From: Streptomyces sp. NL15-2K
Lineage (GTDB): Bacteria > Actinomycetota > Actinomycetes > Streptomycetales > Streptomycetaceae
Assembly (NCBI RefSeq): GCF_030551255.1
Contig: NZ_CP130630.1
Span: forward strand, 2,275,501 to 2,339,500
Reading direction: 5' to 3'
Length of the DNA: 64,000 bases
Position 1 is the stretch's first letter. Each line of letters starts with the position of its first letter. Positions 16,938 through 30,041 of the stretch are shown here, piece by piece. Below the pieces are notes generated by a model, which was not told where the DNA came from, ran no database searches, and saw only the letters and a list, made by a program, of their open reading frames with translations. Position numbers and translations under genes: made by a program.

Positions 16938-18131
16938 TTAAAGGTGCGTTGTCGGCTGCGGATTCGTTGTGGCTGGTCGCGCCCCCGCGGCGGAGCCGCA
17001 CGTGTCACTGCCCCGCGCCCCTGAGGGACGTCTGCCTTGCCGGTCGTTGCTGAGTACCAGTAGGGCGATGTCGTCCGCTGGTGTGCCGCCCGTGTGACGC
17101 AGTAGTGCCGTGAAGATCGAACCCAATACGACCCGTGGGCCTGCGACAAGGTTGTCGCGTACGGCCTCGGACAGGGCTGTGTGCAGGGAAAAGAACCGGC
17201 CACGCGCGTCCCTCGCGTCCTCGGCACCGTCCGTGTGCAGGACCAGGGTCTCGCCCGGCATCAGGTGGCCACACCGCACGGGCGGCAGGTCGTGCGGAAG
17301 AGGGAACAAGCCGAGGGGCGGGTGAGGCTCCGCATTCGCGAGAGGCTCCACCCTCGTGCCGCTGAGCAGATACGGCCACGGATGGCCGCAGTTGAGGGCG
17401 CGGACCTCCCCGTCCCGGTCGATGTCCAGCAGCAGTACGGTGACGAACTCCTCGGCGACCGGGTTCTCGGGCTCCGGCCCGGCCGAGGGATGTTCCGCGC
17501 GCGCCCGTTCGCGCAGGTGCCGGGCCAGGGCGCGTTCCAACCGGCGCAGCACACCGTCGAGTTCCGCCTCGTCGTGCGCGGCCTCGCGGAAGCTGCCCAG
17601 GACGGCGGCCGCCGTAGCGATGGCGGTGAGGCCGTGCCCGCGTGCGTCGCCCATCACGACCCGGACGCCGTGCTCGGTGGCGACCACGTCGTACAGGTCA
17701 CCGCCGATGGTGGCGCCGTGGTCCGCGGACAGCTGGGCGGCGGCGAGGTTGAGGCCGTCGACGCGCGGGGGCAGCGGCCGGAGCAGCACGCTCTGGGCGG
17801 CGTCCGCGACCTGACGGGCCTTCCTGAGCTCACGCAGCAGACCGTGCCGGACGTAGCAGATCAGCCCGGTGCCGACGGCGAAGAAGACGGCGCTGGAGAC
17901 CGCGCGGGCCCCGAGGCCGTTCTGCTGGGCGAGCGGACAGGCCAGCTTGTAGGTGACGGCGACGGCGCCCCAGGCGGTGGGCAGCCCCAGCGCGAGGGCC
18001 CGCCGCAGCCGCCGGCGACGGGGCCGAGAGGTGCCTCGAAGCCATGAGGGAAGGCCCCGATGACCGGGCGCCCGTGTATCCGTCCGGGGCCGCCCAGCCC
18101 TGCGGGGAACCCCAGCTTTGATGCGGATCAT
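16938..18131 (-). CDS. Membrane-associated PP2C/SpoIIE-type serine phosphatase
   Basis: 397 residues from ATG 18131 (MIRIKAG). The longer open frame upstream crosses the mobile element at 18271-18484 and is not coding. Residues about 40-100 contain two hydrophobic helices (ALALGLPTAWGAVAVTYKLA; AVSSAVFFAVGTGLICYV), and about 120-370 is the SpoIIE phosphatase: GGDLYDVV and VVMGDARGHG provide metal-binding aspartates, later LVLHTDGAEDARD and PADDIALLVL. Such enzymes act on anti-sigma antagonists in partner-switching. No antagonist gene is adjacent. The start has no strong ribosome site. The C-terminal 35 residues are low-complexity. Confidence 0.88.
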   Translation of the reverse strand: MIRIKAGVPRRAGRPRTDTRAPGHRGLPSWLRGTSRPRRRRLRRALALGLPTAWGAVAVTYKLACPLAQQNGLGARAVSSAVFFAVGTGLICYVRHGLLRELRKARQVADAAQSVLLRPLPPRVDGLNLAAAQLSADHGATIGGDLYDVVATEHGVRVVMGDARGHGLTAIATAAAVLGSFREAAHDEAELDGVLRRLERALARHLRERARAEHPSAGPEPENPVAEEFVTVLLLDIDRDGEVRALNCGHPWPYLLSGTRVEPLANAEPHPPLGLFPLPHDLPPVRCGHLMPGETLVLHTDGAEDARDARGRFFSLHTALSEAVRDNLVAGPRVVLGSIFTALLRHTGGTPADDIALLVLSNDRQGRRPSGARGSDTCGSAAGARPATTNPQPTTHL

Positions 18132-18270
18132 GCCGATGGCCCCCCAATTAGGCCCTGACAGCGCAATCGGACCGACCTCGAAAGGCCGGTCCGATTCTGT
18201 CGACCAGATGCCCAGAAAGGGCCAATCACTGGGAGAAGTCACCCTATTGAGTGAGGTGACCGCAACGCCC

Positions 18271-18484
18271 CTAGGCCCTGTCGTCAAATTCCCGCCTGCC
18301 CTGCGACGCCATGCACGCTCCCCCACTGCCTTAAAGGCGTGGGAGGTGCCCCCACTCGCCGCACCGGGCACAGACCCACGTACAACCAGTACGAGGGCCT
18401 GCGCCCGGCACGCCGAGAGCACGCACCTGACGCCGCAGGGCCCGCCCTTCGGGCGGACGACGGGAATTTGACGACAGGGCCTAG
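18271..18484. mobile_element. 214-bp CTAG-bounded MITE-like element, type-A ends
   Basis: Bounded by CTAG on both sides, with 22-bp terminal inverted repeats (AGGCCCTGTCGTCAAATTCCCG). Inside lies a GCCCGCCC-TTC-GGGCGG hairpin next to the right end, and an 82-bp core (18355-18436) that matches 79 of 82 bases of the core at 28669-28750 in inverted orientation. No coding capacity. The right CTAG (18481-18484) is at the same time the TAG stop of pheT. It sits in the pheT 3' / phosphatase 5' gap and may act as the pheT terminator. Confidence 0.82.
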
Positions 18485-20993
18485 CTCCGCAGCACCGCCC
18501 CCGTGCGCTCCCCCGCAAGCGCAACCGCCGCGTCCCGAGCCGCAGAGGCCTCATCCACGGTCAGAGTCCGATCAGCCGCCCGGAACCGCAACGCATAGGC
18601 AAGAGACTTCCGCCCCTCCCCCAGCTGCTCCTCGTTCTCGTACACGTCGAACAGCCGGATGCCCTCCAGCAGTTCACCCGCGCCCTCACGCAGCGCGGCC
18701 TCCACATCGGCATGCGGCACGAACTTCTCGACCACGAGGGCGACATCCTGCGTGGCAACGGGGAACGTGGAGATGCTCGGCGCCTGCGGCGTACCGTCCC
18801 CCACCCGCTCCAGCGCGTCCAGATCGAGCTCCATCGCACAGGTACGCGCGGGCAGCCCCAGCGACTTCAGCACCCGCGGGTGCAGCTCACCCGCATGCCC
18901 GACGACCCGCTCGACACCGTCCGCGATGACCGCCAGCTCGGCGCACCGACCCGGGTGCCAAGGCCCGTACTGCCCGCTGCGGACGACCAGCTCCGCACCG
19001 GCCTCACGGGCCACCACCCGCGCCGCCTCCACCGCGTCGGCCCAGTCGCCCGCACGCCCCTTGCCCCACCAGCCGGCCTGCTCACGGGCACCGGCGAGGA
19101 CAACGGCGACGTGGCGCGGCTGCTCCGGCAGCGCGGCGTTCAGCTCCGCGATCTCCTCTTCGGTGGGTCGCCGGTCGACGGGCAGAGCGACAGCGACGCG
19201 CTGCTCCGCACGCGGCAGGAAGACCAGCCCGGTCTCGAACAACGCCAAGTCGTGCGAGCCCCGGCCGTCGTTGCGCCGCAGGGCACCCAGCAGGCCCGGC
19301 AGCAGCGACGTACGCAGCGCCGGCTCCTCGTCGTTGAGCGGGTTGGTCAGCTTCACGACACGGCGGGCCGGGTCGTCGGCCGCCAGGCCCAGCTGATCGA
19401 AGACCTGCTCGCTGACGAACGGGTAGTTCGGCGCCTCGACGTACCCGGCCCCGGCCAGGGCCCGGCCGACGCGGCGGTGCAGCCGCTGCCGGTGGGTGAG
19501 GCCACGGCCGGACGGCGGCTTGGGCAGGGTGGAGGGCAGGTTCTCGTAGCCCTCCAGGCGGATGACCTCTTCGGCCAGGTCGTTGACCTCGAGGAGGTCG
19601 GGCCGCCAGGACGGCACGGTGACGAGCAGCTCGTCCTGCCCGTACACGTCGCAGCCGATCTCCTGAAGACGTCGTACGACGGTCTCCCGGCCGTACGTGA
19701 CACCCGCGACCTTGTCCGGGTGGTCGGCGGGGACGGTGATGGTGTGCGGCGCGGACGGCGCGATGACCTCGGTGACGCCGGCCTCGGCGGTGCCGCCCGC
19801 GAGCAGCACCAGCAGGTCGACGGTGCGCTGGGCGGCGGCGGCCGCGGCCTGCGGGTCGACGCCGCGCTCGAAGCGGCGGGAGGCCTCGGAGGACAGCTTG
19901 TGGCGGCGGGCCGTACGGGCGATGGAGACGGCGTTGAAGTGTGCCGCCTCGATCACGACGTCCGCCGTAGCGTTCTCGACGTCGTCGTGGTCGGCGATCT
20001 CCGTGTTCGCGCCGCCCATCACGCCCGCGAGGCCGATCGGGCCACGGTCGTCGGCGATCACCAGGTCCTCGGCGTCCAGCGTGCGGACCACGCCGTCGAG
20101 GGTGGTGAGCTTCTCGCCCGGCTCGGCCCGGCGCACGCCGATCGTGCCCTGGACGAGGCCCCGGTCGTAGGCGTGCAGCGGCTGGCCGAGTTCCGTCATC
20201 ACGTAGTTGGTGACGTCGACGGCGAGCGAGATCGGGCGCATGCCGACCTTCTGCAGGCGGCGCTGGAGCCAGATCGGGGAGCGCGCCTCGGGGCTCAGAC
20301 CGGTGACCGTACGGGCGGTGAAGCGGTCGCAGCCGACCGGGTCGGCGACCCGCACCGGGTAGCCGAAGGCGTTCGGGCCGGGCACGTCGAGCAGGGCCGG
20401 GTCGCGCAGCGGAAGGCCGTAGGCGATGGCCGCCTCGCGGGCGACGCCGCGGATGGACAGGCAGTCGCCGCGGTTGGCGGTGACGGCGATGTCCAGGACC
20501 TCGTCGACCAGTTCGAGGAGTTCGATGGCGTCCTTGCCGACCTCGGCCTCCGGCGGCAGCACGATGATGCCCTTGGTGCCGTCGTCGCCCATGCCCAGCT
20601 CGTCGCTGGAGCAGATCATGCCGTGGGACGTCTTGCCGTAGGTCTTGCGCGCGGAGATCGAGAAGCCGCCCGGCAGGGTGGCGCCGGGCAGGACCACGAC
20701 GACCTTGTCGCCGACGGCGAAGTTGCGGGCGCCGCAGACGATCTCCTGGGGCTCGCCGGTGCCGTTGGCCTGGCCTACGTCGACGGTGCAGAAGCGGATC
20801 GGCTTCTTGAAGCCCTCCAGCTCCTCGATGGTCAGCACCTGGCCGACCACGAGCGGCCCCTTGAGGTCGTGGCCGAGGTGCTCGACGGTCTCGACCTCCA
20901 GACCGGCCGAAACGAGCTTGGCCTGGACGTCGCGCCCGGTTTCAGTCGCCGGCAGGTCGACGTACTCCCGCAGCCAAGAAAGCGGGACCCGCA

Positions 20994-20994
<1 letters not shown>
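18481..20994 (-). CDS. pheT: Phenylalanyl-tRNA synthetase beta subunit
   Basis: 837 residues, full length. Domain order is as in bacterial PheT: N-terminal B1 ([18 protein letters not shown]), the EMAP/OB-type tRNA-binding domain (about 45-160, [17 protein letters not shown]), B3/B4 (about 210-400), B5 DNA-binding-fold domain, the catalytically inactive synthetase-like core and the C-terminal ferredoxin-like anticodon domain ([20 protein letters not shown]). With PheS it forms the alpha2-beta2 enzyme that charges tRNA-Phe and edits Tyr. Its ATG overlaps the pheS stop by one base. The TAG stop is shared with the CTAG terminus of the downstream mobile element. Confidence 0.98.
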
Positions 20995-22154
<1,160 letters not shown>

Positions 22155-22253
22155 TCACCGACTCGTGGACAGATCGTCACGGTTTTTGGGACACAAGGGT
22201 GCCAAAGGCCGAGTCTAACGGGGTGGAGGTATACGAATGCGCCCGCGGGCTGC

Positions 22254-23399
22254 TCAGGTCAGATATGCCGGAGTGCTCACGGGCAACGTAAATCGGAACT
22301 CGGCGCCGCCGCCGGTGGCGCGGCCGACCGTGATGGTGCCGCCGTGGGCCTCGACGATGCCCTTGACGATGTAGAGCCCGAGGCCGGTGCCACCGCGCTT
22401 GCTGCCCCGCCAGAAGCGGGTGAAGACGCGGTTCATGGACTCCTCCGGGATGCCGGGCCCCTCGTCGCTCACCGTGACCGACGTGGCTGTGTTGTCGACG
22501 TTCTCGCCTTCGCGCGGGGACGCCGTGGCCGTGATGTCAATGGTGACCGTTCCCTCACCGTGCCGCACGGCATTTTCCAGCAGGTTGCTGAGCACCTGGT
22601 CGATCTTGTCGGGGTCGGCCCACAGAGCGGGCAGGGGCTGCTCGATACGCAGCAGGAACCGGTCGGCGGGCAGGCCGGCCGCGACGTACGCCTGGATGTG
22701 CCGTCCGACGGCGGCGCCGATGTCGACGGGCTGGCGGCGCACCTCGAGCCGCCCGGAGTCGATCCGGGAGATGTCCAGCAGCTCGGCGATGAGCCGGGTG
22801 ACCCGGTCGGCGTCCGCGTCGACGGTCTCCAGCATCAGCCGCTTCTGGTCGTCGGTGAACCGTTCCCACTTGGCGAGGAGGGTCGCGGTGAAACCCTTGA
22901 CGGAGGTGAGGGGCGAACGCAGTTCGTGGGCCACCGTCGCGATCAGCTCGGCGTGGCTGCGCTCGGTGCGGCGGCGGGCCTCGGTGTCGCGCAGGGAGAC
23001 GACGACACGGGCGACGGGCCCGGTGGGCCGTGTCCGCACGTATTTCGCGGAGACGAGCACCTCCCGCCCGCCGGGGAGGAGCAGATTGCGCTCGGGCTGT
23101 CCGACCCGGATGGCGAGCCCGCCGTACGGATCGGTCAGCTGCCACCAGCGCCGCCCCTCCAGGTCCTCTAACGGCAGGGCCTTCTCCAGCCGCTGTCCGA
23201 GGGCTTCCTCGGCGGGGAGGGCGGTGATCCTGGCCGCGGCGGCGTTGAAGCAGATCACCCGTCCGTGCTCGTCCGCGACGACGAGGCCGTCGGGCAGTTG
23301 GTCGGGGTCGATGCCGAGCTCGGAGAGATCACCGGGCCGGGACGCGGGCGGGCACCGTACGTCTCGTGCTCCCGGTGCGCTGCTCGTGCCGACACTCAT
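22254..23399 (-). CDS. Orphan PAS-domain sensor histidine kinase
   Basis: 381 residues, no transmembrane helices, so a cytoplasmic sensor. Residues about 25-145 are PAS-like (LPDGLVVADEHGRVICFNAAAARI). The H-box is VAHELRSPLTSVKGF (about 160-175). The ATPase follows with N-box LSNLLENAVRHG, G1 VSDEGPGIPEE, F-box FTRFWRG and G2 GTGLGLYIVKGIVEAHGG. No response regulator gene is nearby, so its partner is unknown. Codon 77 is TTA (23169-23171), giving likely bldA control. In S. coelicolor the homologue also sits next to pheST, as I recall. Downstream on the same strand is pheS, 138 bases away. Confidence 0.93.
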   Translation of the reverse strand: MSVGTSSAPGARDVRCPPASRPGDLSELGIDPDQLPDGLVVADEHGRVICFNAAAARITALPAEEALGQRLEKALPLEDLEGRRWWQLTDPYGGLAIRVGQPERNLLLPGGREVLVSAKYVRTRPTGPVARVVVSLRDTEARRRTERSHAELIATVAHELRSPLTSVKGFTATLLAKWERFTDDQKRLMLETVDADADRVTRLIAELLDISRIDSGRLEVRRQPVDIGAAVGRHIQAYVAAGLPADRFLLRIEQPLPALWADPDKIDQVLSNLLENAVRHGEGTVTIDITATASPREGENVDNTATSVTVSDEGPGIPEESMNRVFTRFWRGSKRGGTGLGLYIVKGIVEAHGGTITVGRATGGGAEFRFTLPVSTPAYLT

Positions 23400-23450
23400 C
23401 CCCGTACCCCACCTCTCAGACGGCGCAGGGCCCCCGAGCTGGTCACCCTA

Positions 23451-23515
23451 CTAGGCCCTGCCGTCGGATTCCCGTCGTCCGCCCGAAGGGCGGGCGGGAA
23501 TCCGACGGCAGGGCC

Positions 23516-23518
<3 letters not shown>
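23451..23518. repeat. 68-bp solo type-A hairpin (core-less CTAG element)
   Basis: Perfect 22-bp arms (AGGCCCTGCCGTCGGATTCCCG and complement) enclose a GCCCGAAGGGC hairpin. The left 43 bases differ from the reverse complement of the right end of the 18271-18484 element at three positions, each matched by a compensating change on the other arm. The right end reads TTAG, and its TTA (23516-23518) forms the TAA stop of the methyltransferase gene. It probably acts as a bidirectional terminator. Confidence 0.8.
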
Positions 23519-24364
<846 letters not shown>

Positions 24365-24455
24365 GCAACTCACCTTCGGTAACAACTCTCCGCCGCGACG
24401 GCGATCACCTCGACGACGGATTACGGCGGTGCCGAGGCCCGCACCACGCAGCACA

Positions 24456-24485
24456 ACGGACCCGCAGGCGATCCCACGGGTCCGT
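24456..24485 (-). terminator. Terminator after rplT
   Basis: Nine-base arms (ACGGACCCG / CGGGTCCGT) around a 12-base loop, 32 bases past the rplT stop; it closes the infC-rpmI-rplT operon. Confidence 0.7.
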
Positions 24486-24517
24486 CCAGTCACGTCGGCT
24501 CAGGGCCGGCGCCGGTG

Positions 24518-24901
24518 TCACGCAGCCTTCGGCGCGTTCACATCGCTCGGCAGCGCCTTCTGCGCGACCTCGACGAGCGCCGCGAAGGCGTTCGCGTCGT
24601 TGACGGCCAGCTCGGCCAGGATCTTGCGGTCGACCTCGACGTTCGCGGCCTTCAGCCCCTGGATGAAGCGGTTGTACGTGATGCCGTTGGCGCGGGCCGC
24701 GGCGTTGATGCGCTGGATCCACAGCTGGCGGAAGTCACCCTTGCGCTTCTTGCGGTCGTTGTAGTTGTAGACCAGCGAGTGGGTGACCTGCTCCTTGGCC
24801 TTGCGGTACAGGCGCGAACGCTGACCGCGGTAGCCGGAGGCCTGCTCGAGGATCGCCCGGCGCTTCTTGTGGGCGTTGACTGCCCGCTTGACGCGTGCCA
24901 C
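24518..24901 (-). CDS. rplT: 50S ribosomal protein L20
   Basis: 127 residues, standard length for L20. Clear family pattern: [57 protein letters not shown] and [19 protein letters not shown]. It binds 23S rRNA domain I during early 50S assembly and in several bacteria also represses its own operon by binding the leader or an internal site. Third gene of the infC-rpmI-rplT operon, 95 bases after rpmI, with a good AAGGAGT ribosome site. Highly expressed gene composition. Confidence 0.99.
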
Positions 24902-24996
24902 TTTTAACTCCTTGTAGCGGGGCCGCGGTTGGACTCACGCGGCCCGGAAACGATTGGGTCCCGGTCAGAGATCGGGCGCGAGATGCGCGCCGGATG

Positions 24997-25191
24997 TCAC
25001 TTGCCGAGAAGCTTCTTGATCTTCTTGGCGTCGCCCGGGGCCATCTCGGCGTTGCCGGTGAGGCGACGCGTCAGACGGGACGACTTGTGCTCGAGATAGT
25101 GGCGCTTGCCGGCGCGCTCACGGAGCACCTTGCCGGAGCCGGTGACCTTGAAGCGCTTCCTGGAACCGCTGTGCGACTTGTTCTTCGGCAT
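24997..25191 (-). CDS. rpmI: 50S ribosomal protein L35
   Basis: 64 residues from ATG 25191 ([20 protein letters not shown]). The open frame extends upstream but the true start is set by the conserved MPKxKxH N terminus and the GAGGAGAG ribosome site. The C terminus [12 protein letters not shown] is typical of the family. Middle gene of the infC-rpmI-rplT operon, 110 bases downstream of infC. Structural 50S component. Confidence 0.99.
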
Positions 25192-25301
25192 AGCGCCGTT
25201 CTCTCCTCGTCGGTGGCGCTCCGATGCCCGGTCGTGAAACCGGGCACGGTGGAGCGTCGCTCTTGTATCGGTTACGTCCTGGGGACTTGCGTCCCCCGGG
25301 A

Positions 25302-25961
25302 TCACGCGTCGGCGGATGCCTCGGCCGGAGCCTCGACGTCTTCCAAGGCGTTTTCGGACTCCGCGGCGTTCTGCGACTTGCCGGGGTTGGCCTTCGCCTC
25401 GGCCTTGCGGGCTTCCTGCGCCTGGCGAGCCTCGGCCATCGCCTCGGTCTTCTTCTTGTGCGGACCGAGAACCATGATCATGTTTCGGCCGTCCTGCTTC
25501 GGGTTCGACTCGACGAAACCGAGGTCCTGGACGTCCTCCGCGAGCCGCTGCAGCAGTCGGTAGCCCAGCTCGGGCCGGGACTGCTCGCGACCACGGAACA
25601 TGATCGTGATCTTGACCTTGTCGCCCTGCTTGAGGAACCGGACGACGTGACCCTTCTTGGTGTCATAGTCGTGCGGGTCGATCTTCGGCCGGAGCTTCAT
25701 CTCCTTGATGACCGTGTGCGCCTGGTTCTTGCGCGCCTCACGGGCCTTCATGGCCGACTCGTACTTGAACTTCCCGTAGTCCATGAGCTTGCACACGGGC
25801 GGACGGGCGTTCGCCGCGACCTCGACCAGGTCCAGGTCGTACTCCTGCGCAAGCTCCAGTGCCTTGGCCAGGGGGACGATGCCCACCTGCTCGCCACTGG
25901 GACCGACAAGTCGCACCTCGGGAACGCGAATCCGGTCGTTGATGCGGGGCTCGGCGCTGAT
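25302..25961 (-). CDS. infC: Translation initiation factor IF-3, ATC start codon
   Basis: 219 residues if read from the ATC at 25961. IF-3 N-terminal domain begins [20 protein letters not shown], linker near residues 80-90, C-terminal domain with [20 protein letters not shown] and [20 protein letters not shown], then a 40-residue alanine/glutamate-rich actinobacterial tail. The strong GAGGAGG ribosome site lies four bases upstream of ATC. No ATG, GTG or TTG start is in frame between it and the distant upstream frame, and an upstream GTG TGG TGC runs into TAA. IF-3 discriminates against non-standard starts, and an abnormal infC start allows autoregulation (known for E. coli AUU). First gene of the operon; its leader carries a terminator. 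Confidence 0.95.
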
Positions 25962-26280
25962 GGATCCTCCTCGGTTAGCACCACACGGCCATCTGGCGGA
26001 CGGCCGCGTATGTCTGTGTTCGTAAGACCTAACCGCGCCGACGCACAAAAAATGCCCCGGACGATCACAGGCGGGGCTCCATTGCTACCGGAGCACCGCC
26101 GCGATGATCGCGGGGCGCGCTTTCGGGCGACTCCATCGTCCGTACGGAACGATGGTGGCCGCCTGACCGGGTGACCCGCCGTCCCGGAGGACGGTCAGGT
26201 GGGAGATCGGAGCCTCCACTTGTGGGCCGAGCACGCTGCGTACTTCATGGCGCGTCCGGCCGGTCGTTACACAAGGTTAG
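25962..26280 (-). promoter_or_regulatory. Structured leader/promoter region of the infC operon
   Basis: About 320 bases upstream of infC without a gene. In minus-strand order it contains inverted repeats (CTGACCG...CGGTCAG near 26163-26200; CCATCGT...ACGATGG at 26133-26155), then the terminator at 26047-26077, then a five-codon frame ATG GCC GTG TGG TGC TAA (25992-25975) that ends just before the ribosome site. This layout fits transcription attenuation of a ribosomal-protein operon, comparable in principle to L20-leader systems of other phyla. Confidence 0.55.
26047..26077 (-). terminator. Intrinsic terminator in the infC leader (candidate attenuator)
   Basis: On the minus strand GCCCCG...CGGGGC forms a six-pair stem followed immediately by A and six Ts. 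A U-run terminator is rare in this G+C-rich DNA. It lies 86 bases upstream of the infC start in the direction of transcription. Confidence 0.7.
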
Positions 26281-26351
26281 CAGCTCGGTCCGGGAAGGGC
26301 TAACCGAGACCGAATGGGGCGATGCTCCGTGGGGCACCTATCGTGTCCTGC

Positions 26352-26720
26352 ATGAGTGAAACCTCCCCCTCCGGCTCCCCCGAGCAGCCCGACTTCGACG
26401 AGATGACCCGCGACATCGCGGAGGTCCCGGCGGTCGAGGTGATCGTGACGGTCGCCGTCAATCTGATGAGCGCCGCCGCCGTGAAGCTCGGGCTGACCGA
26501 GGAGGGCGACAAGTACAAGGACCTGGACGAGGCCCGCAAGCTGGTGCACGCCCTCGCCGGGCTGCTGGACGCGAGCGCGACCGAGATCAGCTCCTTCCAC
26601 GCGGCGCCGCTGCGCGACGGTCTGAAGTCGCTGCAACTGGCGTTCCGCGAGGCGTCGCTCGTCCCGGACGAGCCGGGCCAGGGACCGGGCGAGAAGTACA
26701 CGGGCCCGATCTACGGCTGA
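26352..26720 (+). CDS. DUF1844 family protein
   Basis: 122 residues from ATG 26352 (MSETSPSGSPE). The core FDEMTRDIAEVPAVEVIVTV, AVNLMSAAAVKLGLTEEGDK and DLDEARKLVHALAGLLDA is the DUF1844 (PF08899) helical pattern; small acidic cytosolic proteins of unknown function conserved across actinobacteria, commonly found beside infC. It is transcribed divergently from infC; the start has no obvious Shine-Dalgarno sequence, so leaderless expression is possible. Its stop is one base from the stop of the convergent SseB gene. Confidence 0.9.
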   Translation: MSETSPSGSPEQPDFDEMTRDIAEVPAVEVIVTVAVNLMSAAAVKLGLTEEGDKYKDLDEARKLVHALAGLLDASATEISSFHAAPLRDGLKSLQLAFREASLVPDEPGQGPGEKYTGPIYG

Positions 26721-26721
26721 T

Positions 26722-27453
26722 TCACGGGCGTACGTACAGGGGCTCGCCCGGCGGCGTCACCCCGGCCGGCAGCAGGGCCAGGTCGAGGCCGCGCACCAGG
26801 CGGGCCCGTAGCGTGTCGTCGGCGGCGAGGCGCTGTGCGACCGCCCGCGCGGCCTCGGCGGGTGGCGTGGCCGGGTCCAGTACGAGCACGAGGGTGCCGT
26901 CGGCCTGCCCCGGTCCGAGGTGGGCGCGCAGCACGGCGGGCTCGGCGGCCACGGCACCGCGGACGGCCTCGACGACGGCCGGGTCGGCGAGCGGGTCGGC
27001 CGTCGTACGCCCCTCGGCGAGCGCGAGCAGCGCGGGCCCGGTCAGCTCGTACGGCACGGGTCCGGCCATGTCCAGCACGATCGTGTCGGCCTTCTCGTGC
27101 GCGGCGGCCTGGAGGGCCTGGTGCAGGGGTACGGCGACGGGGCGGGCCGCCGGGTCCCAGCGGGCCAGCGACTCGGTGGAGGTGAAGGCGGGCAGGGCGA
27201 CGCGGCTGCCGGCCTTCAGGGTCGGTACGGCCATGTCGCTGGTCTTCTCGCGGCGCAAGCCGTTCTCGTCCTCCTCCACCTCGCCGAGCACGGCCACGAC
27301 GGGGACGAGCAGCCGGGCGCCCTTGAGCGCCTCCAGGACGGGTCCCTCGGCGGAGCGGTCCTCGGCCCAGGCGGCGAGCGCCGCGCTCAGCCGGGGGTCG
27401 GCGGAGCCGTCGTCGTCGGAGAAGCCGGAGTCGGGAATGTTCTTGTTCGCCAC
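26722..27453 (-). CDS. SseB family protein
   Basis: 243 residues from GTG 27453 (VANKNIPDSG); the in-frame ATG at 27549 lies in the divergent promoter region and is rejected. Residues about 20-130 are the SseB N-terminal domain (RLSAALAAWAEDRSAEGPVL, GARLLVPVVAVLGEVEEDEN, VALPAFTSTESLARWDPAARPV). A second half with a similar pattern follows (PAVLRAHLGPGQADGTLVLV). SseB-like proteins are cytosolic, with an enhanced-serine-sensitivity phenotype in E. coli but no settled biochemical role. Convergent with the DUF1844 gene. Confidence 0.85.
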   Translation of the reverse strand: MANKNIPDSGFSDDDGSADPRLSAALAAWAEDRSAEGPVLEALKGARLLVPVVAVLGEVEEDENGLRREKTSDMAVPTLKAGSRVALPAFTSTESLARWDPAARPVAVPLHQALQAAAHEKADTIVLDMAGPVPYELTGPALLALAEGRTTADPLADPAVVEAVRGAVAAEPAVLRAHLGPGQADGTLVLVLDPATPPAEAARAVAQRLAADDTLRARLVRGLDLALLPAGVTPPGEPLYVRP

Positions 27454-27603
27454 GGTCACCGACCCTATAGGGGGGATACTGCTGCGCTTGTGCGGGCCCG
27501 GAAATCTGTTCGTGACGCCCTTCACCGCTTTCTCAGATATCTCTGACACACATCTAACATCCGTCTAACAGCCCGCACAGTCGCCGCCCCGAGCATCGCG
27601 GGC

Positions 27604-28551
27604 ATGGACTCTTCCAGAGCCGCCCCCCGCTCCCGTCCTCCCCGGCGCCGCCCCTGGCTGTACACCGCGCTCGCCTCCGTCGCCGTCGTCGGCGGTACGG
27701 CGGGCGGGACCGTGTACGTCAAGGCGCAGGCGCATTCCGGTGGGGGCGCCGTATCGTCGGCGCCGACGCCGTCGGCCTCCCCCTCGGCCCCGGCGATCGA
27801 GGAGGCATCAGTGGAACCGGTGGCGCAGCCGACGGTGGACCATGACGCGGTGCTGGCCGACGCCTTGGAGGCCGTGGGCGCGGAAGACACCGCGGAGGTT
27901 TCGGTGGCGGTGCTCAGCCTGGACTCCGGCGAGAGCGCGAGGTACGGCGACGGCGCCTACGACACGGCGAGCATCGTCAAGGTCGACATCCTGGCGGCGC
28001 TGCTGCTCCGGCATCAGGACGCGGGGACGCGTCTCACGGCCCAGGAGAAGGCCTACGCCACCGCCATGATCGAGAACAGCGACAACGCCTCCGCGACGGC
28101 GTTGTGGCGGATCATCGGGAGGGCGGACGGGCTGGACGCCGCGAACGAGCGGTTCGGGCTCGCCGACACCGAGGGCGGCGACGGCGAGCTGTGGGGGCTG
28201 ACGCAGACGACGGCCGCAGATCAGCTCAGCTTGCTCCAGCAGGTGTTCGGGGACGACTCGGAGCTGAGCGGGGCCTCGCGGTCGTATGTGCGGGGGCTGA
28301 TGGGTGGGATAGCCGTCGGCCAGCAGTGGGGGGTGTCGGCCGCGGCCGACGGTTCCGGGTGGGCTCTGAAGAACGGCTGGCTGCCGCGCAGCACCACCGG
28401 GCTGTGGGACATCAACAGCGTCGGGCGCGTGACGGTGGACGGCGACGACTACCTGGTGGCCGTGCTGTCGAAGGGCAACTCGACGCAGGCGAAGGGGATT
28501 TCGCTGGTGGAGGCGGCTGCTCGGGCGGCTGTGTCGGTGTTCACGCGCTGA
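27604..28551 (+). CDS. Exported serine hydrolase of the class A beta-lactamase fold
   Basis: 315 residues. An N-terminal RPPRRRPWLYTALASVAVVG helix is a signal or membrane anchor, followed by a serine/proline linker to residue about 75. The hydrolase domain shows S-x-x-K as ASIVKV (nucleophile), the SDN motif in IENSDNASA and KNGW in the KTG position (LKNGWLPR). A Glu166-type omega-loop glutamate is not evident, so true beta-lactam hydrolysis is doubtful; a transpeptidase-like or peptide hydrolase role at the wall is more likely. Transcribed alone, followed by a small tandem repeat and a mobile element. Confidence 0.88.
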   Translation: MDSSRAAPRSRPPRRRPWLYTALASVAVVGGTAGGTVYVKAQAHSGGGAVSSAPTPSASPSAPAIEEASVEPVAQPTVDHDAVLADALEAVGAEDTAEVSVAVLSLDSGESARYGDGAYDTASIVKVDILAALLLRHQDAGTRLTAQEKAYATAMIENSDNASATALWRIIGRADGLDAANERFGLADTEGGDGELWGLTQTTAADQLSLLQQVFGDDSELSGASRSYVRGLMGGIAVGQQWGVSAAADGSGWALKNGWLPRSTTGLWDINSVGRVTVDGDDYLVAVLSKGNSTQAKGISLVEAAARAAVSVFTR

Positions 28552-28573
28552 AGCCGCCGTAGCGACCCTCTAA

Positions 28574-28625
28574 CCAGCTCTACTGCTCCAGAACCCGTCC
28601 CAGCTCTACTGCTCCAGAACCTGTC
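28574..28625. repeat. Two tandem 26-bp units derived from the protease gene end
   Basis: The unit CCAGCTCTACTGCTCCAGAA plus CCYGTC occurs twice, with one base difference. A third, diverged copy (28800-28823) is the very 3' end and stop codon of the minus-strand S8 protease gene. The 28633-28801 element lies between the copies. Confidence 0.75.
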
Positions 28626-28632
28626 GTAGCGA

Positions 28633-28801
28633 CTAGTGCCGCGGCAGGCAACGTTTGCCCGTCAAGGAGCGGCGTCCGGTGCGTGCTCTCGGCGTGCCGG
28701 GCGCAGGCCCTCGTACTGGATGTACTTGGGTCTGTGCCCGGTGCGGCGAGAGTGCGTGCCGGGCGTCGCGACGGGGCAAACGTTGCCTGCCGCGGCACTA
28801 G
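28633..28801. mobile_element. 169-bp CTAG-bounded MITE-like element, type-B ends
   Basis: CTAG on both sides and about 26-bp terminal inverted repeats (TAGTGCCGCGGCAGGCAACG, continuing TTTGCC) that are unrelated to the type-A ends. The 82-bp core (28669-28750) shares 79 of 82 bases with the core of the 18271-18484 element. The core itself is an imperfect palindrome (CTCGGCGTGCCGGGCGCAGG against TGTGCCCGGTGCGGCGAG). No coding capacity. Confidence 0.82.
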
Positions 28802-28811
28802 CTGTACTGCT

Positions 28812-30041
28812 CTAGAAGCCGTCGTAGCTGTCGTAGCCCTCGTAAGTGCGCGGTGGGCGGCGGCCGCGCCACAGGACCACCGCGACGATCAGCAGCACCA
28901 CGCCGAAGCCGCCCGCGAGCGGGGCCGCCCAGACCGAGGTGTCGCTGTCCGCCCGGTCGGCGTCCGGGCCGGAGCCGAAGTACCTGTCGCCGTACGCGGC
29001 CGCCTGGAGGCCCTCCGGTTTGAGGCGGTCGGCCTCGGCGAGGGCGGCCGCCGGGTCGATGAAGCCGTAGCCGCGGGAGTCGTCGCGGCCGCCGCTGGGG
29101 GAGTTGCGGGCCGTGTCCTCCAGGAGTTCCTTGATCTGGGCCGGGGTCAGGTCCGGGTGGGCGGCCTTGATGAGCGCGGCCGCGCCGGAGACGAAGGCGG
29201 AGGCGGCACTCGTCCCCCAGCCCTCGTAGTACTTGTGGTCGGGGTCGGCGATGACGACGTCGACGCCCGGGGCGCTGACCGTGGCGTACCAGCGGCGGGT
29301 GGAGAAGGAGGCGCGGGTGCCGTAGCGGTCGACGGCGGTCGCGGCGATCACGCCCGGGTAGGCGGCCGGGTAGGAGATGTGGTCGCCCTTCTCGCCGCCG
29401 TTGCCGGCGGAGGCGACGACGACGGAGCCCTTCTTCAGGGCGTACTGGACGGCCTCGTCCTCGGCGGGTTCGGGGTGGGCGGAGGCGGAGTCGTCGCCGA
29501 GGGAGAGGTTGATGACCTCGGCGCCCTGGTCGGCGGCCCAGCGGATGCCTTCGGCGAGGGCGTTGCCGCGGGTGCTGCGGGCCCTGGCGCGGGACGGGTC
29601 GCCGTCTTCGAGGATCACTCGGACGGGCAGGATCTTCGCCTCCGGGGCGATGCCCATCACGCCGTCGGCGCCGTCGGCGCCGTGTCCGTGGCCGGCGATG
29701 ATGCCGGCCATCGCGGTGCCGTGCCGGGCCCAGGCACGGTCGCCGTCCTTCGCGCCGAAGCCGATCATGTCCTTGCCGGGGAGGACGTTGCCGACGAGGT
29801 CGGGGTGGTCGGCCTCGACGCCGGTGTCGAGGACGGCGACGGTGACGCCCGCGCCCTTGGTCGTACGCCAGGCGTCCTGGGTGTGCATGGCCTCGAGGGC
29901 CCACTGCTGGGCGCGGATGCCGTCGGCGTGGGCGGCGGTGGGTGGGACGAGGGCGACGGAGGCGGCGAGCAGGGCGCTCAGCAGGCCGGCCCTGCGGGTC
30001 CTGACGCTCATACGGCTCACGCGGCTCACGCGGCTGCTCAT
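28812..30041 (-). CDS. Mycosin-like S8 (subtilisin) serine protease, membrane-anchored
   Basis: 409 residues. Signal peptide (RTRRAGLLSALLAASVALVP, cleavage near AHA-DG). The catalytic triad is visible: Asp in VAVLDTGVEADHPDL, His in ARHGTAMAGIIAG and Ser in WGTSAASAFVSGAAALI, with the oxyanion Asn in VVASAGNGG. A single C-terminal membrane helix (APLAGGFGVVLLIVAVVLW) and short cytosolic tail complete the mycosin (MycP) plan of type VII secretion. The start ATG overlaps the stop of the proline-rich gene by four bases, so the two are translationally coupled. No Esx, EccC or EccD gene is present in the window. Confidence 0.92.
   Translation of the reverse strand: MSSRVSRVSRMSVRTRRAGLLSALLAASVALVPPTAAHADGIRAQQWALEAMHTQDAWRTTKGAGVTVAVLDTGVEADHPDLVGNVLPGKDMIGFGAKDGDRAWARHGTAMAGIIAGHGHGADGADGVMGIAPEAKILPVRVILEDGDPSRARARSTRGNALAEGIRWAADQGAEVINLSLGDDSASAHPEPAEDEAVQYALKKGSVVVASAGNGGEKGDHISYPAAYPGVIAATAVDRYGTRASFSTRRWYATVSAPGVDVVIADPDHKYYEGWGTSAASAFVSGAAALIKAAHPDLTPAQIKELLEDTARNSPSGGRDDSRGYGFIDPAAALAEADRLKPEGLQAAAYGDRYFGSGPDADRADSDTSVWAAPLAGGFGVVLLIVAVVLWRGRRPPRTYEGYDSYDGF

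Follow-up and report, generated by a model that had tools for sequence, protein, structure and literature searches.

Bacterial miniature inverted-repeat transposable elements (MITEs) are short and gene-less, with inverted tips equal or close to those of insertion sequences (ISs). We describe here a family of such elements, two of which, elements A and B, lie in a 64,000-nucleotide stretch of the genome of Streptomyces sp. NL15-2K (the window; C1:2275501-2339500, C1 being contig NZ_CP130630.1 of a 12.4-Mb genome in three contigs). In addition to these MITE properties, the family has CTAG at both ends and about 100 copies in this genome. It differs from other bacterial MITEs in that one core is found within ten classes of tips, at least two transposase families are implicated, pairing is better on one strand, and the copies are polarized with respect to the replication origin.

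IS630 elements are Tc1/mariner-like and have a TA target, and IS5 elements have a CTAG-type target. The tips of one class here (B) match those of an IS630 element, and those of another (C) match those of an IS5-family element at 18 and 19 of 20 outer bases; the elements that we describe carry no transposase, and B elements have an interior unlike that of IS630.

A link between replication and orientation also has precedents. According to one article (PMC5371812), members of the IS200/IS605 family, such as IS608 and ISDra2, make use of folded single strands, and their orientation follows replication. A folded strand and a replication-linked orientation are likewise seen here, but the tips are of the IS5 or IS630 type. 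That article cites Gomez et al. (2014) for IS families oriented by replication via the sliding clamp; the orientation of our elements likewise follows replication, but their two tips are nearly identical, and the source of the polarity should thus lie in the interior, which is asymmetric. Already known, then, are MITEs, the IS5 and IS630 families, and transposable elements whose orientation is linked to replication (the last from PMC5371812). What is new, as far as could be seen, is a family with many tips around one core, its strand asymmetry, and its polarity despite nearly identical tips. A preliminary description of the window, made from the sequence alone, knew of no family with this arrangement, and we found none among the titles and opening abstract lines of the open-licence literature searched, subscription papers and ISfinder aside; the accessible part of a paper on MITEs of P. 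syringae (PMC3189936) holds nothing of this kind.

One core within ten classes of tips

Element A (18271..18484, 214 bp, IS5-like tips) and element B (28633..28801, 169 bp, IS630 tips) lie where the preliminary description had placed them, with CTAG at both edges of each; the range that it gave for A, running to 18801, exceeds the element, which ends at 18484. The tip of A, CTAGGCCCTGTCGTCAAATTCCCG (18271..18294), recurs inverted at 18461..18484, and that of B, CTAGTGCCGCGGCAGGCAACGTTTGCCC (28633..28660), recurs inverted at 28774..28801. The better-pairing strand, which we call "+," is the minus strand of the window in A and the plus strand in B. Both elements contain an 82-bp core (18355..18436, minus strand, in A; 28669-28750 in B), and the two cores are near-identical once that of A is inverted, with 3 mismatches in 82, as had been noticed earlier. 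A 98-bp version from element B (28669..28766, plus strand), a long hairpin with recurrent G.U pairs, was the query for the genus search. Element A also carries an extra insert, the hairpin module M4 (18318..18354; TGGGGGCACCTCCCACGCCTTTAAGGCAGTGGGGGAG in the "+" sense), and a small subterminal hairpin, CCCGCCCTTCGGGCGG (18441..18456), typical of A, C, and D elements.

Neither element contains a gene, again in agreement with the earlier description; no stop-free stretch exceeds 70 codons in A or 56 codons in B. Rfam 15, run over window positions 17800-29300, gave no gathering-level match in either element, and the one match to element B, mir-H2, was sub-threshold (29.4 bits versus 92). No coding core or known RNA was thus found.

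The two elements first noticed are real, but the scale is far larger than two. By BLAST, the core occurs at a minimum of about 41 places in this genome (46 matches, counting reverse-strand self-matches; of 216 candidates, 40 were scored). Sites of the B-tip pattern number 146 in the genome, compared to 0 for its reversed control, and those of the A/C-tip pattern 59, compared to 2; with control counts this much lower, the tip matches are not due to chance. A script working from the tips located 104 elements, with both core arms in 87, one arm in 13, and neither in 4; we read the 13 as elements whose core is often split by a hairpin insert. Across the genus, the core is present in 174 of 295 sampled Streptomyces genomes (E up to 1e-5; three candidates scored per genome), and almost all named relatives of the elements come from Streptomyces. 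The elements are thus short (169 and 214 bp in the window), have inverted terminal repeats and no transposase gene, and occur in many dispersed copies. Judged by their sequence, they can be taken as established MITEs in which one core has apparently been joined to the ends of two transposase families.

In this genome, the core sits within tips of types A (GGCCCTGTCGTCAAATTCCCG), C (GGGCCTGTTGCGAAAGTCCCG), D (..AAAGTGGCG), D2 (GGGCCTGTGTCGAAAGTGGCG), and B (TGCCGCGGCAGGCAACGTTTGCCC), in 94 distinct sequences; other genomes add further tips, such as CTGACAATTCCCG, CCGCAAAGTCCCG, TTTCGAAAGTCCTG, CTTCTGATGGATCTCCG, and CCGGCGGATCTTCGC. By inner motif, ten tip classes surround the core. Among 161 tips from elsewhere (75 foreign copies with plausible borders and 86 copies from named drafts), there were 39 of class A, 24 B, 16 G, 9 I, 9 F, 8 C, 6 D, 3 E, 2 K, and 1 J, with 44 unclassified. 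Inverted ends flank the core in 86 of 89 foreign loci (3 are without ends), although 11 of the 86 outer borders, those giving a length above 240, are probably misplaced. In the named drafts, ends were found in 86 of the 97 copies examined out of 115 stretches, and 11 of the 97 had none. The core is therefore not confined to one end type; such confinement would have spoken against the mosaic proposed at the outset.

The proposal that the ends are unrelated holds in part. The tips of A and B have little in common beyond CTAG, but those of classes A, C, D, F, G, and I are alike, and by sequence they look like variants of a single IS5-like tip (CTAGG.C.TGT...). A GGATCT motif is common to tips E, J, and K. 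Clearly unrelated to A are thus only B and perhaps the GGATCT tips. Modules also cross tip types: M4 is present in some copies of every end type of this genome (A, B, C, D, and D2), and an alternative center module occurs in both B and D2 elements; a further module, M1long, was matched with a loose pattern and is given no weight.

The core of element A differs by 1 mismatch from that of a C-ended element and by 7 from that of the nearest A-ended one. Of the 30 non-B cores in this genome, 26 are nearest to a core of their own tip type, 2 are tied, and 2 (element A and the C-ended element just mentioned) are nearest to another type; changes of ends are thus rare beside copying. The original suggestion, that a palindromic core moves from one end type to another or is common to families with different transposases, is supported by the finding of the same core in A, C, D, D2, B, and other ends, with links to both IS630 and IS5.

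As a separate matter, G-rich hairpin inserts (TGGGGGCACCTCCCACGCC..., GGGGGTCCCCCC...) stand at fixed positions across several tip types, including window positions 18318-18354. Such inserts might be mobile on their own.

Transposases that could move the elements

The search for full-length ISs with the same ends succeeded for B, with an IS630 element, and closely for C and D, with an IS5-family element; none was exact for A. A 1,237-bp IS on a Streptomyces plasmid has tips matching those of B at 25 and 26 of 28 bases (3 and 2 differences) and encodes an IS630 transposase (DDE_3; NF033545, 148.4, cut-off 100). In NL15-2K itself, a decayed IS630 copy (C1:12223240-12224144; 76% identity over 273 of 377 residues, one internal TGA) is adjoined by an orphan tip with 27 of the 28 B bases, and no partner tip was found in the 3.7 kb fetched around it. 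By this sequence evidence, B elements can be taken as IS630 derivatives.

For class C, a 948-bp IS (locus L078) has tips that differ at only 1 and 2 of the 20 outer bases and encodes a protein of the IS5 family (DDE_Tnp_1; NF033580, 126.4, cut-off 110). C and D tips thus closely match those of an IS5-family element. Six IS copies in this genome have CTAGGGCCTGTGTGACGTTG tips, and the one that was scanned belongs to the IS5 family (136 versus the cut-off of 110). Tips of A and of IS5 elements both contain CTAGG(G/C)CCTGT, a resemblance that may point to an IS5-like mobilizer for A elements. The 18 outer bases of A tips also match a further locus (L074), two proteins of which were scanned, with no transposase among them.

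CTAG sites, stacked elements, and a proposed change of ends

CTAG stands at both ends of most copies and is a rare word: the window contains 12, compared to 169 expected from base composition, about 14-fold depletion. Four of the 12 are element edges and four are at predicted stop codons, position 18481 being both; inside predicted genes there is none other than at stops. (Genes here are those predicted by our own codon-usage caller, not an annotation.) In 43 of 104 elements, the TAG stop of a predicted gene lies within the element's CTAG, and 72 of 104 are within 100 nucleotides of a predicted gene 3′ end, with 25 of 104 within 100 nucleotides of a 5′ end. The location at gene 3′ ends pointed out earlier is correct for A and B, but it is largely explained by the rarity of the CTAG target. 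For element A, the CTAG at 18481-18484 contains the stop codon of pheT (phenylalanine--tRNA ligase beta; 18481..20994, minus strand; TIGR00472, 624.5 bits, cut-off 402.65). Element B lies between convergent predicted genes at 27604-28551 (+) and 28812-30011 (-), the latter matching the profile of a type VII secretion system mycosin.

Elements also meet at their edges. Five pairs in this genome overlap at one CTAG (C1 positions 823386/823551, 1063797/1063852, 3656757/3656922, 4423329/4423539, and 5191721/5191899, from the element script), several with different tips; in one of the pairs, one partner is a degenerate piece of 60 bp. An IS5 copy adjoins a B element in one locus (L235, 914-2018 and 2015 onward) and a D2-tipped piece in another (L237, 1358-2532), and two small elements with different tips adjoin in a third (L048, 422-886). 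A 69-bp piece (L057) is bounded by an A-like tip on one side and a D2 tip on the other. If tips are swapped through recombination or deletion in stacks, such stacks and a hybrid piece are what one would expect as intermediates.

We also inspected the pheT loci of 17 relatives, 2 of which (L316 and L317) end in CTAG without an element. Six tips tested on these 17 loci gave two weak matches, elsewhere in the locus and not tip-like.

Pairing is better on one strand

The core folds as a long hairpin, as had been supposed. As RNA, the "+" strand of element B forms a very strong hairpin, at -159 kcal/mol (z -17.6), compared to -122 (z -12.0) for the "-" strand; with DNA parameters, the values are -90 and -72. 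The "+" orientation was assigned from core or subterminal sequence, not from folding. On this basis, "+" gave the more stable fold in 90 of the 94 copies in this genome; among the four exceptions, one (L101) has no core and three (L060, L114, and L126) were apparently misoriented by the 22-base key. The same was true of all 86 foreign copies with ends and of all 86 named-draft copies.

Across 197 distinct cores, the 42 pairs gave 1,644 G.U, 45 A.C, and 438 other-mismatch cells, and 94% of cells pair on "+," compared to 29-53% in slid controls. G.U is the commonest state in 8 of the 42 pairs and A.C in none; in the 34 pairs with Watson-Crick as the commonest state, there were 349 G.U, 43 A.C, and 315 other-mismatch cells. 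Among unique one-sided events, taken from nearest neighbors, Watson-Crick/G.U changes outnumber Watson-Crick/A.C changes 41 to 16 (sign test p 0.001). Eighteen unique double changes lead from one Watson-Crick pair to another, and both sides have changed at pairs such as 8-92 (CG/AT/TA), 32-68 (GC/CG), and 37-63 (GC/AT). The strand asymmetry is therefore firm; strict conservation of "+" pairing is not.

Orientation follows replication

Of the 104 elements, 3 shorter than 100 bp are left out of the orientation counts. The best scanning split of orientation falls at 5.7-5.9 Mb, with 40 "+" and 15 "-" copies to the left and 9 and 37 to the right (Fisher p 1e-7, uncorrected for scanning), and dnaA lies within that interval, at 5.767 Mb. 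With the split placed at dnaA, 77 of 101 copies are in one polarity (p 1e-7), and with copies of shared flank words dropped, the count is 71 of 95. In the common orientation, the geometry makes the better-pairing strand the template for the leading strand; "+" runs 5′ to 3′ towards the origin in about three-quarters of copies.

The bias is seen across tip types (A, 12/15; C, 6/7; D, 4/4; D2, 9/11; B, 38/56; B-variant, 8/8) and gene contexts (convergent, 27/34, p 8e-4; leading-strand tandem, 22/27; lagging-strand tandem, 4/7; divergent, 5/7; unclear, 19/26). It also holds over 12 other genomes, selected because they have few contigs and match the core well, in which 114 of 149 copies have this polarity (p 6e-11; 180 matches tallied, 150 listed, and one on contig C2 dropped), a count that includes orthologous sites shared between species. 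Four of these genomes (G172, G228, G244, and G284) individually give p < 0.05. In G244, dnaA is a below-cut-off fragment at the start of the record, and in G007 dnaA is near the start, so that a circular layout was assumed for both; without these two, 99 of 133 copies have this polarity (p 1.5e-8).

Explanations for the asymmetry and polarity

What is established is a MITE family in which one core is combined with several tips, together with its links to IS630 and IS5, its strand asymmetry, and its polarity; the last two did not figure in the preliminary description. As the cause of the asymmetry and of the polarity, we favor a fold needed on one strand together with loss of copies, with a pure effect of the replication fork as a close rival. 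Probably, then, these are MITEs with IS5 and IS630 tips whose "+" strand must fold as a single strand in spreading, and whose wrongly oriented copies are lost. In this view, each is a hairpin core of about 80-100 bp, enclosed by the tips of CTAG-targeting ISs, of the IS5 family in some copies and of the IS630 family in others. As CTAG is rare, a sizeable share of the sites open to other CTAG elements would be found at element edges. In the end-to-end stacks that result, an old core could gain new tips by recombination or deletion, perhaps assisted by copying of one end onto the other with the palindrome as template. At some step in spreading, the "+" fold would be needed as a single strand, either RNA or single-stranded DNA. 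The hairpin of the other strand, the lagging-strand template in the common orientation, would cost stability; G.U wobbles would preserve the "+" fold while weakening that hairpin, and copies in the opposite orientation would be lost more often. More speculatively, one can envision the core as a selfish unit that folds on one strand to spread, borrows successive IS5 and IS630 transposases through changes of tips over evolutionary time, and has its orientation sorted by forks.

Several observations weigh against this account. The exchange of ends is inferred, never directly observed. At L316 and L317, both flanks can be aligned in full, but they are separated by 28 and 15 extra bases, so the comparison with an empty site is not base-precise. 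Plasmid BLAST, annotated regions, an IS5 search of this genome, and the tip script yielded no IS with exact A tips, only related IS5 tips. The L078 protein spans only positions 115-257 of the 258-position NF033580 and may thus be a split or incomplete transposase. Eight inherited G.U pairs largely account for the pairing contrast, and because the copies were found by similarity to one core, the cells are not independent. Outside these eight pairs, other mismatches nearly equal G.U, so "+" pairing is not strictly kept; another 44 unique one-sided events go to other mismatches, and private changes are few (63 singletons, 38 of them from one divergent copy, 25 without it). Slid controls gave 6-13 covarying pairs, compared to 16 for the real alignment, making this count supportive at most. 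In three of the 12 genomes, there is no clear excess (G040, 2/5; G267, 4/7; G103, 7/11). Finally, tandem genes in NL15-2K read the poorer strand in 26 cases versus 8 (74 of 104 elements usable, 30 left out for unclear or distant context), which suits no RNA job in cis. In the named drafts, where replication direction is not known and copies too near the locus edge were left out, tandem genes are unbiased (14 versus 13; 67 of 86 usable).

Palindromes that are asymmetric are lost in an orientation-dependent way in E. coli, and it is possible, though less probable than the account above, that replication alone is at work here: hairpins on the lagging template would be cut or deleted and copies with the weaker hairpin would survive, the G.T pairs of the other strand being a by-product with no RNA or single-strand role. 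The split at dnaA fits this, as does the poorer pairing of the minus strand, which serves as the lagging template in copies of the common orientation, and such a process allows as many other mismatches as were seen beside G.U (315 and 349). Pure weakening would not keep 94% of cells paired on "+," however, and the 18 unique Watson-Crick double changes are compensatory. That the element acts in cis, as a portable terminator or a 3′-end mRNA hairpin, with insertions at stop codons harmless or useful and site-wise selection on RNA keeping G.U, is unlikely. The hairpin is very strong as RNA and 72 copies lie near predicted 3′ ends compared to 25 near 5′ ends, but the CTAG target accounts for this location, tandem genes have the better strand as their antisense strand 26 to 8 here (14 to 13 elsewhere), and convergent sites are polar too. 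The tandem-gene counts and the polarity at convergent sites together favor replication over gene direction, though lagging-strand tandem sites are few (7). A terminator role was thus weakened by the orientation counts.

We consider it improbable that strand-biased mutation alone, by which a "+" strand in the common orientation, on the slightly G/T-richer strand, would gain C-to-T and A-to-G changes, produced the asymmetry. The sign of the flank skew fits (GC +0.004 on the left, -0.011 on the right) and the "+" strands are G/T rich, but flank skews are about 1%, and neither the compensatory changes nor the orientation bias would be explained. We give similarly little credence to a polar DNA motif. 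KOPS and Chi are motifs read by strand-polar proteins, and direct repeats in both arms (CCGGTGCG, GCGTGCCGG) could be read in this way and select orientation; TG is found repeatedly in both arms (pairs 11-12 with 88-89 and 26-27 with 73-74) and the replication polarity agrees, but the coordinated changes seen at pairs 32-68, 35-65, and 37-63 of the inner stem would be left unexplained. It is very improbable that two independent MITE families took the same host sequence, a gene or an RNA, as cargo. Ends that differ around a shared interior are what this predicts; against it, neither element has a gathering-level Rfam match, the core lies within such tips in most foreign copies (inverted ends in 86 of 89 loci), and modules are common to different tips.

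The favored reading, a one-strand fold with loss of opposite copies, suggests that a non-autonomous element can outlive its mobilizers if it exchanges the ends of one transposase family for those of another, the two having the rare CTAG target in common. The 174 of 295 genomes with the core offer a natural experiment on how replication treats hairpins, and a strand-asymmetric palindrome with an orientation bias of about 3:1 makes palindrome stability in vivo directly testable. The core is also usable for annotating these elements, many of which are at gene stop codons.

Related elements and another feature of the window

A locus of Kitasatospora paracochleata (L400) and matches on plasmids of Embleya, Streptantibioticus, Kitasatospora, and Rhodococcus represent related elements or B-like tips beyond Streptomyces. 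In three loci (L210, L392, and L401), the core palindrome extends outward without a CTAG tip; these are possibly decayed or domesticated copies. Elsewhere in the window, at 26047-26268 on the minus strand, Rfam matches the Streptomyces small RNA Scr1601 (193.5 bits, gathering threshold 100).
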